Below are positions 24,846-29,236 of a stretch of 64,000 bases of DNA, one piece after another. Position numbers and translations under genes: made by a program. The notes below the pieces were generated by a model, which did no database searches, was not told where the DNA came from, and was given only the letters and a program-made list of their open reading frames with translations. The DNA comes from Caldibacillus debilis DSM 16016 (lineage in GTDB: Bacteria > Bacillota > Bacilli > Bacillales > Caldibacillaceae). Every line of letters begins with the position of its first letter. Within the stretch, counting starts at the first letter, position 1. The DNA lies in the NCBI RefSeq assembly GCF_000383875.1, contig NZ_KB912914.1, forward strand, positions 21,363 through 85,362. The letters are read 5' to 3'.

Positions 24846-26513
24846 TCATATTTCCATAACGATCGGAATGATCATCGGTCGGCGTTTCGTTTCATCAAAC
24901 AGAAAGGCGCTGAGCTGATCGCGGATTTCCTGCTTCACGTTCGTCCAGTCGAAGGCCGGCCGGCGGAATCCCTTTTCCGCGATCTCCCGGACCATCTTCG
25001 TCGATTTTTCGATCAGTTTTTCCGACTCCCGGACGTAAACGAAGCCCCGCGAGATGATCTCCGGACCGGAGACGATCCTCCGCTCGTTCCGGCTAATGGT
25101 CATCACGACGATGAAAATCCCGTCCTGGGACAAAAGTTTCCTATCCCTAAGCACGATATTTCCCACATCGCCGACGCCGATGCCGTCGATCAAAACGTGG
25201 CCGGCGGCGACGCGGCCGTTGAGGGAGATTTTGTCCCGCCTGATCTCGACCACGTCCCCTTTATCGGCGATGACGATGTTTTCCTCCGGAACGCCCATGC
25301 TCATGGCGATTTTTTTATGGGCGTTCAGCATCCGGTATTCGCCGTGGATGGGGATGAAAAATTTCGGCTTCATGAGATTGAGCATGAACTTCAGCTCTTC
25401 TTCCCTGCCGTGGCCGCTGACGTGGTACCTCCCCTGGTTGGTAATGACGTTCGCGCCGGCGCGGAAGAGCATGTCGATCGTTTTGATCAAAAACAATTCG
25501 CCGCCCCGGTGGGGAGATGCGGCGATCAAAACCGTATCGCCCTTTTGGATATGGAGCTGTTTGTGGGCCCGCTTCGCCATTTGCTGCAAGGCCTCCAGCG
25601 GTTCCCCTTGGTTCCCCGTCATCAGGATGACAAGCTCCTCGTCAGGGATTTTGGAAACGGAGGAAAAGGGGACGACGACCGACTGGTCCAGGTGCAAATA
25701 GCCGAGTTTGTGCGCGATGGAATAGACGTTATGGAGTTCCCTCCCGGCGATGGCCACCTTCCGTCCCGACTTGGCCGCCGCATCAAAGACCCGCTGAATG
25801 GCGTTCAGGCTCGAGGCATAGCAGGCGAAAATGATCCTTCCCGGAGAATTGAGGAAGATGCTCTCCAGCTCCCGGCTGACGGAAACTTCGGGGGTGGTGT
25901 ACCCCGGCTTTTCCGCCTCCGTGCTGTCGGAGAGAAGGCATAACACCCCCCGGTCACCGATATCGGCCATCTTGCTGATATTGGCCCGGTAAAGGGGATG
26001 GGTGCTTTGGTCGAATTTAAAATCCCCGGTGTAGACGATGGCGCCGATGTCCGTATGCATGCAAATCCCGACGGCATCGGGAATGCTGTGATTGACTTTA
26101 AAAAAGGTGACGCTGCAATGGGGAAACTCCAAGACGGTATCTTCATCGACGATTTCAAAGGAAACCTTCTGCTTGAACCCGTTTTCCCGCATTTTCGCTT
26201 CCGTTAAGGAAACGGTCAGGCGGGTTCCGTAAACCGGGGCATCCACTTCCCGCAATAAATAGGGCAGCGCTCCCGTATGGTCCTCGTGTCCGTGGGACAG
26301 GAAAATGCCTTTGACCCGGTTTTTGTTTTCGATCAAATAGGTGAAATCGGGGATGACGATATCGATGCCGAACATTTCCTCTTCGGGAAACATGAGGCCG
26401 GCATCGATCACGTACAGGTTTTTCTGGATCTCGATGACGTACATGTTTTTCCCTAATTCCCCTACGCCGCCCAAAGGAATGATTTTCACGGACTGATGTT
26501 TGTTTTTAGCCAA
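24846..26513 (-). CDS. rnjB: Ribonuclease J (RnjB type)
   Basis: A 555-residue metallo-beta-lactamase/beta-CASP ribonuclease with 5'-exonuclease and endonuclease activity in mRNA decay and rRNA maturation. The zinc motif is [12 protein letters not shown], with YTGDFKFD and the C-terminal [10 protein letters not shown] supplying further ligands. RnjB rather than RnjA is inferred from its place between dapA and tepA, as in B. subtilis ymfA. The TTG at 26513 gives a start that lines up with B. subtilis RnjB (nine residues before VKII); two further TTG codons upstream (26519, 26522) are also open. Confidence 0.93.
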
Positions 26514-26671
26514 TTTCAACAATCCTCGCTTCTGCTTTCTTTTTTTTCGGCGGAAAGCCGTTTTTCCTGCGGCAGAGAACGGGAGGCATCCCCCGCCGCT
26601 CCTCCGGAAAACGGGCGGGCCTCCCGGGACTTTCCCGAAAGAAAAGACACCCCAGGCATCGGCTTTTAAAA

Positions 26672-26845: not shown

Positions 26846-27136
26846 TTGGACAAAACTGAACCGATCATCGACAAAAGTGCCTTGATTTTAGACAAACCGC
26901 ACCATATGTTGGACACCGGAACCGATGATGGACATTTTTGTTGCGATGATGGACATTTTTTCGGCGATGATGGCTATTTTTTCTTTCATGTTGGACATAT
27001 TTTTTCCCATGTTGAACATTATTTTTAAAATAATGGACAAACCATTGAAAATGTTGGACAGTCAACCGCGGAATTGGACAATTTTTTATCGATATTGAAC
27101 GATTCCGCCGCCATTTTGGACATTCCGGCGGAAGTC
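26846..27136. repeat. Array of 14 degenerate repeats with 21-bp period
   Basis: The word WTGGACA (variants TCGACA, TTAGACA, TTGAACA) recurs with its last base at 26852, 26873, 26894, 26915, 26934, 26955, 26976, 26997, 27018, 27039, 27060, 27080, 27101 and 27122. Steps are 21 bp except one of 19 and one of 20. Consensus is roughly WTGGACATTTTT-N6-GATG. The 19- and 20-bp steps break any heptad-repeat reading frame, so a DNA-level role (protein binding every two helical turns) is more likely than a protein. It lies between dapA and rnjB. Confidence 0.85.
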
Positions 27137-27807
27137 CTCAAAGGAATGTCGGCCAATTCTTTCATCATATCGTTTCCCACACGAAACCCATTTTTCGGCT
27201 GCTTATCCCAATCTTGCGAGGCCGCCGCCTTCCCCGGCCGGGAACATCCCTTTTCGGCATGGCCTGTGAACGCCGAATCCGGCCAAAGTGCGGGACGGCC
27301 GCCAGGCGAACCCCGCTTTTCGTCCGATGCCCATGGGAGCATCCGCCCCTTTTGGCCGAGGCGGCCGGTTGCGGGTTCAAAAATCCCGCCCGCGCGATCA
27401 TTCCTTTTCCTCGCTTGCGGGTGACGAGTCGTATTTTCTCCGTCGGTTTTCGCCGCACGGGTCATTTTTTCTTATACGGACACGACATTCCCCATCGGAA
27501 AAAGTCACCCGCGATTTCGGTTTTTGGGAACGGCAGGATCTTCTGCGCCGGAACGGGAAAGGGGGGAAACCCGCCGGAAGAAGTTTCTCTCGCCTTGAAA
27601 TTCGCCGCGTTTTCCGTCCGTCGGATTTTGAAAGCCAAACGGAAGTCGCTCACCCTGCCCGCAGTTTTTCCGTTTGCGGGAGTTTGTCCGTCTTTGCCGC
27701 AAGTTTCACCGTCTCTTTCCGGGTTTCGAGTTTGCCGCCCGGCTTCACCATAGGCGTAACCAGCAATCCCGAAGGATACCGGCCTTCGATCGGAAAGCCC
27801 GAATCCT
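27137..27807. other. GC-rich spacer without recognisable gene
   Basis: About 670 bp between the two repeat arrays. Several open frames overlap on both strands, but their products are compositionally odd (Arg/Pro/Ser-rich) and resemble no family that I know. No promoter, RNA gene or terminator is evident. Confidence 0.45.
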
Positions 27808-27890
27808 GCGGTCAGGGGGCGGTCTCAGACCCGAACGAACGGCTGTAAGACTCTCCCCCGAAATATCTGCTTATTCCGCGGTCAGGGGGC
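27808..27890. repeat. Pair of direct repeats GCGGTCAGGGGGC, 70 bp apart
   Basis: The 13-bp word is exact at 27808-27820 and 27878-27890, and both copies are followed by similar GGTYTCRGACCC sequence that can fold (GGTCTCAGACC). The 70-bp offset is close to the spacing of the palindromic elements starting at 28014. Confidence 0.6.
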
Positions 27891-28013
27891 CGGTTTCGGA
27901 CCCTTCCCGAAACGGTGCGGCCGATCAAGTTTTTCGGACAGGGCGCCTTTTCCCACCGGAAAATCGCGGCGCTTCTCCCGGATCCGTTGAGCGGGGGGAT
28001 TTCCCGGCTCTAA

Positions 28014-28312
28014 GGATGGGCATTCGCGAAATATCGACCGCCCGGAAACGAATTTGGGATCGTCCAAACCCTTAAGGAGCATTTCCGTAAAATTCGGGCT
28101 GCGCTCCATCCTGCGTTCGGAGGAGATTTTCTGTTCCAAGTAAGAAGTGCTTTCCCTAAAAATCGGACTGCTTTGGGAACGAATTTGTGATCGTCCGTAT
28201 CCGGCGTGAAGAGCATTCCCGGTAAATTCCGGACGCTCCCCATCCGGCCATCGGAGGAGATTTCCCGCCCAAAGGAAGGGGAGCATTCCCGAAACATTCG
28301 GGCTGCTCCCTG
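28014..28312. repeat. Five palindromic elements in tandem units of about 130 bp
   Basis: Elements of about 30 bp near 28014, 28074, 28144, 28209 and 28279 share the pattern GGAGCATTCCCG-N5-CGGGCTGCTCC and can each form a hairpin; the last (28279-28310) is almost perfect. Odd and even elements alternate, giving a larger unit of 129-134 bp that also repeats CGAATTTG-GATCGTCC and CGGAGGAGATTT. The array begins about 40 bp after dapA in its direction of transcription. A long minus-strand open frame through it only mirrors the repeats. Confidence 0.7.
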
Positions 28313-28354: not shown

Positions 28355-29236
28355 TCAGATTTTGCCGACTTCTTTCAACAAATCCATGAGCCTGTTTCTT
28401 TCTTCCGCCGTCAGCGGAACTAAAGGCAATCGGACGCTTCCCACGTCCAGGCCGGTCAGCTGCAGGGCCGTTTTCACGGGAGCGGGGCTCGGGGCCATGA
28501 ACAGCCCTTTCATCAGGGGAAGCAATGTATGATGCCATTTCTGGGCCGTCCGATAGTCTCCGGCGAAAAAGGCCTTGATCATTTTTTGCATCTCGTCTCC
28601 GACCACGTGGGAGGCCACGCTGACGACCCCTTCCCCGCCGATGGAAAGAACCGGAAGGGTCAGGCTGTCATCCCCGCTGTACAGGGCAAAATCATCCGGG
28701 GTGTTGGCGATGATTTCCGACATTTGGTTCAGATCTCCACCCGCCTCCTTCACGGCGCGCACATTGGGGATTTCCGCCAGACGGATGACGGTTTCGGGGA
28801 GCATATTGACGCCGGACCTGCCGGGGATATTGTAAAGCATGACGGGGAGGGACGTGGCTTCGGCAATGGCGCGGAAGTGTTGGTAAATCCCTTCCTGGTT
28901 CGGCTTGTTGTAATAGGGAACGACGAGGAGAATCCCGTCCACGCCGATTTCCTCCGCCTTTTTCGTAAGCTCCACCGATTCCTTCGTATTGTTGCTCCCC
29001 GTGCCGGCGATGACCGGGACCCTGCCGTTTACGACTTTCACCACATGCTTAAAGAGGGCGATCTTTTCTTCCTTCGTCAGCGTCGGAGATTCCCCCGTCG
29101 TGCCGGCGACGACAAGGGAGTCGCTCCCGTGCTGGATCAGGTATTCCACCAGGTAGGTCGTTTTTTGGAAATCGATATACCCTTTGGCGTCAAAGGGGGT
29201 GACCATCGCAGTGGAAATGCGTCCAAAGATCGACAT
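28355..29236 (-). CDS. dapA: 4-hydroxy-tetrahydrodipicolinate synthase
   Basis: DapA condenses pyruvate with aspartate semialdehyde, the entry to diaminopimelate, lysine and spore dipicolinate. The 293-residue TIM barrel shows the pyruvate-binding motif AGTTGESPTLT, Tyr in YNIPGRSGVNM and the Schiff-base lysine in RAVKEAGGD (about residue 161). It follows dapG by 4 bp with AAGGAGTGAG as ribosome-binding site, as the last gene of spoVFA-spoVFB-asd-dapG-dapA. No ordinary terminator follows; the palindromic array begins just beyond. Confidence 0.97.
   Translation of the reverse strand: MSIFGRISTAMVTPFDAKGYIDFQKTTYLVEYLIQHGSDSLVVAGTTGESPTLTKEEKIALFKHVVKVVNGRVPVIAGTGSNNTKESVELTKKAEEIGVDGILLVVPYYNKPNQEGIYQHFRAIAEATSLPVMLYNIPGRSGVNMLPETVIRLAEIPNVRAVKEAGGDLNQMSEIIANTPDDFALYSGDDSLTLPVLSIGGEGVVSVASHVVGDEMQKMIKAFFAGDYRTAQKWHHTLLPLMKGLFMAPSPAPVKTALQLTGLDVGSVRLPLVPLTAEERNRLMDLLKEVGKI

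Follow-up and report, generated by a model that had tools for sequence, protein, structure and literature searches.

A single-locus tandem repeat behind dapA in Caldibacillus debilis DSM 16016 that is probably a diverged minisatellite with mostly vestigial hairpins

Five related elements lie behind dapA in Caldibacillus debilis DSM 16016, and they form a tandem repeat whose units, of about 65 bp each, are repeated once more as pairs. The array is probably a bacterial minisatellite confined to this locus, in which the copies have drifted apart, most of the hairpins have become vestigial, and the unit nearest to dapA (U1) would mark or protect the 3' end of the dap mRNA. A literature search on the subject, judged by titles and the beginnings of abstracts, found no paper on such an array.

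We studied the array in a window of 64,000 nucleotides (the whole stretch of DNA that was analysed, to which positions refer unless a contig or locus is given) from a draft genome of 3.06 Mb in 40 contigs. The genes around the array are arranged on the minus strand in the order asd, aspartate kinase gene, dapA, RNase J gene, and a ClpP-like gene, the last of which was named from hits below curated cut-offs. The two genes that flank the array are as follows.

28355..29236, minus strand: dapA (4-hydroxy-tetrahydrodipicolinate synthase), NCBIfam TIGR00674 equivalog above cut-off, the last gene ahead of the array
24846..26522, minus strand: RNase J gene, TIGR00649 above cut-off, the next gene in the same direction

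The gap between these genes is 1833 bp long in this genome. Most related loci have less than 500 bp there, although some reach as much as 3.9 kb, and in the five of the six family loci where the gap was measurable it was 355, 546, 562, 576, and 629 bp. The relatives searched comprised 60 genomes, seven of the same family and none of the same genus. The gap is GC-rich and has other strong hairpins (fold energies of 36-nt windows: -21.7 at position 26566, -16.8 at position 27772); outside the array it also contains two 18-bp direct repeats, 70 bp apart, around GCGGTCAGGGGGC (27803-27890).

Read in the sense of dapA, which is the minus strand, the array is composed of the units and higher-order copies listed below. 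The energies and z scores were obtained by folding each unit alone as dap-sense RNA and comparing it with shuffles.

28280..28309, minus strand: U1, the strongest hairpin, starting 44-45 nt after dapA, with the tail CCTTCCTTT
28210..28239, minus strand: U2, the second strong hairpin, without a U-tract (-16.2 kcal/mol, z -3.3)
28145..28175, minus strand: U3, a homologous unit placed by alignment, hairpin lost (-5.2 kcal/mol, z -0.4)
28076..28107, minus strand: U4, a weakened hairpin (-11.2 kcal/mol, z -2.3)
28018..28043, minus strand: U5, a weak, shortened hairpin (-11.6 kcal/mol, z -1.8)
28177..28311, minus strand: higher-order copy A (U1 and U2 with linkers), from self-alignment against shuffles
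28044..28176, minus strand: higher-order copy B (U3 and U4 with linkers), identical to copy A at 95 of 131 aligned positions
27956..28017, minus strand: candidate worn continuation of the array, which may belong to a third higher-order copy and hold a sixth unit, from a lenient Tandem Repeats Finder search

The 3' ends of the five units are 70, 65, 69, and 58 bp apart. The initial annotation had described five palindromic elements directly after dapA at intervals of about 59-70 bp; they were located correctly and are related, but the array is less regular than claimed and U3 is no longer palindromic. The homologous unit of about 65 bp consists of a hairpin and a linker, and the mean column identity over the five units is 73%. 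Together, the units make up a duplication in tandem with a period of 131-134 bp. When the two halves of the array were aligned with each other, the score was 52, versus a maximum of 15 in 300 dinucleotide-preserving shuffles, and the higher-order repeat that had been noticed earlier, flanking words included, was borne out by 87-nt copies that lie 134 bp apart and are 74% identical. The copies thus follow one another head to tail beyond chance, as in a tandem repeat. The lenient search gave one row (27956-28309, period 134, 2.7 copies), and a worn sixth unit may exist downstream of U5. A shorter period was also detected: the match at lags 21 and 22 was reached by 0 of 1000 shuffles for the whole array and by 32 of 1000 for a single 135-bp copy, a setting free of inflation by the large duplication. 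The array thus likely has a finer structure of 21-22 bp.

All five elements had been described as hairpin-forming. Folding supported this for U1 (-22.1 kcal/mol, z -5.0; -16.2 even at 55 C) and for U2, both of which are strong, whereas the hairpins of U4 and U5 are weak and U3 has none. In four of the five units, all but U4, the fold is better on the dap-sense strand than on the opposite one. Among U1 to U5, stability is greatest beside dapA. Some features run against reading the array as a minisatellite: U1 and U2 exceed shuffles by far in hairpin strength, the folds mostly favour the dap-sense strand, and the fall in stability away from dapA is not smooth, a possible sixth stretch (27936-27990) reaching -19.5 kcal/mol over 55 nt in a fold that had no shuffle control. 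However, copies A and B are identical at 42 of 59 hairpin positions and at 53 of 72 linker positions, so that no additional conservation of the hairpins, taken together, is seen. In the five-row alignment, 78.7% of the pair cells were standard, a value reached by 120 of 500 shuffles; the covariation score of the stem pairs was reached by 43 of 500, and the RNAalifold covariation term was unfavourable. Four of the ten stem pairs had changed on both sides (reached by 24 of 500 shuffles), which hints at some constraint on the hairpins. The Rfam 15 covariance models gave no match at gathering score in the whole window. A coding origin, in which the array would encode protein repeats (IFRES/IFREC), was rejected: the differences between copies A and B are distributed 14/8/14 over the codon positions, that is, with no codon signal, and the copies are mutually out of frame. 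The open reading frames over the array matched no family in NCBIfam or Pfam.

The initial annotation had suggested that the elements might be a family of palindromic repeats spreading in this genome, and had proposed a genome search as a check. A BLAST search of the genome with the array as query returned only the array itself, with the best other match at 30 bits. A 68-position covariance model of the 65-bp unit scored the five units at 54-80 bits and gave no other match better than 18 bits among the 150 scored out of 1001 first-look candidates; when 400 kb of the genome were sampled, there were 28 matches at E <=5, the best of which had E 0.05 and 18 bits. A 30-position model of the hairpin only also found the five units (150 of 1511 first-look candidates scored), with U5 at E 0.23 and the next matches from E 0.27; because U5 stood barely above them, very worn single copies could be missed by this model. 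Since BLAST and both covariance models found this one locus, with the next matches at chance level, the idea of a spreading family fails within the candidates scored, and we take the array to be a single-locus feature. The dapA units do resemble REP elements, and the clusters known as BIMEs, in their size, their palindromic form, and their intergenic position, several to a cluster, behind an operon; U1 and U2, and more weakly U4 and U5, are extragenic, palindromic, and short. Unlike REP units, they were not found elsewhere in the genome and are not highly similar. REP elements are described as highly similar units with a common consensus, which does not agree with the column identity found here or with a unit that has no hairpin. 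A REP-like family is very improbable.

Beyond this genome, model R1 gave six non-self matches at E <=0.1 in 40 other genomes, the best at 0.0086 (up to 125 candidates per genome scored, with stricter filters). In 86 related loci, it gave three matches, all at E 1.4 or worse, and model R2 gave eight, all at E 0.7 or worse; one of these eight (L067, E 8.6, opposite strand) lay inside the gap between dapA and the RNase J gene and the other seven outside. The array had no match in plasmid or phage records, and an origin from either was rejected. A CRISPR array was also considered, as the units are about 30 bp long, partly palindromic, and about 30-40 bp apart; it was rejected, for what would be the spacers recur every 131-134 bp, and what would be the repeats diverge strongly from one another. 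The array agrees with minisatellites (VNTR) in its head-to-tail copies, its higher-order duplication, its intergenic position, and its single locus, and differs from them in the strong divergence between the higher-order copies, from which the array is probably old.

The same hairpins might instead be serial terminators or a staged 3' protector, in which a row of hairpins would stop the polymerase stepwise or block 3' exonucleases and so shield the RNase J gene from read-through. U1 begins 44 nt past the dapA stop codon and has -21.1 kcal/mol in the gene-end test. By our rule (hairpin of -7 kcal/mol or lower, 6 or more T among the 9 bases that follow, start within 120 nt), a terminator is found behind dapA in 70 of 84 related loci; these are the loci with enough sequence among the 86, and two contigs are present twice (L020 = L104, L040 = L106). 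In the gap, a pattern scan of the minus strand gave a single further site that resembles a terminator (26660-26646); it lies about 1.7 kb downstream and adjoins the RNase J gene. These points fit a terminator function at this position. The scan found three sites in total versus 4.4 in shuffles, which is fewer than expected. U1 resembles an intrinsic (Rho-independent) terminator as a GC-rich hairpin right after the last gene of the dap cluster, but its U-tract is poor, with 5 T in the 9 bases after the hairpin and C as the first base (tail CTTCCTTTG in the terminator test), and the corresponding counts for U2, U3, U4, and U5 are 1, 4, 4, and 3. None of the five units thus combines a GC-rich hairpin with an immediate U-tract. 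Since U2 to U5 have no U-tract and the hairpins are conserved no better than the linkers, serial termination, which the initial annotation had proposed, was not supported.

Nor does the locus appear to need a substitute for a clean terminator. Fourteen of the 84 related loci fail the rule, although at least one of them (L043) has a clear terminator by eye. Four of the six family loci pass (L101, L103, L104, and L106); by eye, L105 has a long-looped terminator and none is visible in L102. Among the gene ends in the window, 10 of 26 have at least 6 T in 9 under a related rule and 16 fail, dapA included. As such failures are common, the missing terminator behind dapA is not special. We consider the serial-terminator reading unlikely. 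The part of it that stood concerns U1, which fails the 6-T rule yet is the best terminator candidate behind dapA in the window; from its position and its tail, U1 may act as a weak terminator or a 3' exonuclease barrier, and we think of U2 to U5 as leftovers. We also considered descent of U1 from an ancestral dapA terminator and rejected it: inspection by eye showed no clear sequence that the hairpins in relatives from the family share with it or even with one another.

The short sub-period raises another alternative, namely that the array is a worn member of the 21-bp-periodic intergenic arrays of the family, such as the TTTCGGGAACTTCC arrays of another member of the family (G004). Contig C5 of that genome carries long 21-bp arrays with the unit TTTCGGGAACTTCCCC... 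(loci L141, L145-L147, L149-L160, L210, and L211), with higher orders of 42, 63, 84, 105, and 126. Two of them (L141 and L146) end near the 3' end of a gene, as judged from stop-to-stop frames. These arrays are probably non-coding because several frames are open simultaneously. Three of the six non-self matches of model R1 fall in the G004 arrays (E 0.009, 0.045, and 0.056), and the dapA array, like them, has a period near 21 bp (a sub-period of 21-22 bp) and higher orders, and repeats the word TTTCGGGAA with variants. With a 21-position matrix made from 120 G004 units, the sum of the top five sites in the dapA array was reached by 2 of 750 segments of the window, but its best site was reached by 52 of 750; the segments were taken from both strands, overlapped, and in some cases covered the array itself. 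Furthermore, the G004 arrays supply very many sites, which favours chance matches, they are longer and cleaner and lie at many places in one genome, and BLAST of a G004 array against the present genome gave no match (6 of 20 candidates scored). We regard kinship between the two as possible, and we give the membership of the dapA array in such a group a low probability.

A different 21-bp-periodic sequence was found in the same gap. Positions 26879-27158 of the window are part of a dispersed element with an inner period of 21 bp (TTGGACA every 21 bp or so), which occurs at at least 13 places in the genome (the query copy and ten others, plus two more; 11 of 65 first-look candidates scored). The copies (loci L161 and L164-L173, also L018 and L019) are 74-93% identical to the query, the copy in the window being 93% identical. 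They have a common long-range order with few gaps, and so look like an element rather than a simple repeat. In the 60 relatives, one short match was found in each of two genomes, and there was no match to Rfam. A gene for a NERD (nuclease-related) domain protein (L015 2181-3119) lies between two copies in the same orientation (L161 and L165; G000 C1:95600-97724). This dispersed element is a more curious object than the dapA array.

Tandem arrays of unrelated sequence also occur in other genomes at the same place. Strong tandem repeats were found in the gap between dapA and the RNase J gene in 3 of 86 related loci: in Mesobacillus selenatarsenatis (L026) and Bacillus sp. J33 (L037), the units are 52 bp long, and in Bacillus canaveralius (L028), they are about 20-21 bp long with higher orders of 40 and 62. 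L072 has a weaker row in the gap (score 52), and in the gap of L090 there are 10-15-bp units, scoring up to 143, which lie inside a long reading frame and are coding-like. Elsewhere in the present genome, a second local array of three units of about 49 bp was observed (C1:39624-39772, which is L175 19624-19772); it came from a lenient search that had no shuffle control, appears by eye to follow a gene and the terminator of that gene, and has a unit that does not repeat elsewhere in the genome besides a 30-bp match.

We surveyed 140 loci for arrays, 80 of them dapA loci and the other 60 stretches of 12 genomes (2.04 Mb altogether). There were 26 clusters with scores of at least 100. The unit length was 52-54 bp in nine of them, from five genomes (one genome contributed three, and two others contributed two each), and 20-21 bp or multiples in seven, a count that is biased by a G004 stretch (L210, two arrays) picked for its known arrays. 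The remaining ten had other lengths, and four of these sit in reading frames of more than 300 codons. Intergenic arrays with units of 52-54 bp and unrelated sequences were seen in L026, L037, L053, L069, L206, and L242, from five genomes; some of these units contain an inverted repeat, in folds made without a shuffle control. Tandem copies of about 122-123 bp, with no frame open across them, were seen in two other Bacillales genomes (L062 7862-8100 and L241 4785-5174), and the L062 unit has a strong fold. One might read the dapA array as a worn example of a tendency in the Bacillaceae to form intergenic arrays near helical-turn periods (20-21 and 52-54 bp), with unrelated sequences; such arrays would in some cases lie behind gene ends and in some cases have one hairpin per unit. 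We hold this wider reading to be quite improbable, and the spacing of 58-70 bp in the dapA array fits a helical-turn period only through the sub-period of 21-22 bp.

Returning to the minisatellite that we prefer, we suppose that it began as a short segment behind dapA with one hairpin, apparently built of sub-repeats of about 21-22 bp. The segment would have been duplicated to give a pair of 65-bp units, and the pair would have been duplicated again at about 131-134 bp, through slippage or unequal recombination. The copies would then have drifted apart. U1 would probably mark the 3' end of the dap mRNA or protect it, acting as a weak intrinsic terminator or an exonuclease barrier, and the downstream units would have become mostly vestigial, perhaps since transcription seldom extends that far. 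Most likely the array is neutral, except perhaps for its first hairpin.

As a lone array, this one is of little weight. It gains some weight from the other tandem arrays that the same gap carries in other genera and from the preferred unit lengths that the small survey suggests; if the wider tendency were true, it would point to a shared process that sets the period, such as a DNA-bound protein or a step of replication or repair. For functional readings, the array is a warning that hairpins in a row after an operon can be the product of local duplication and not of selection for many terminators.
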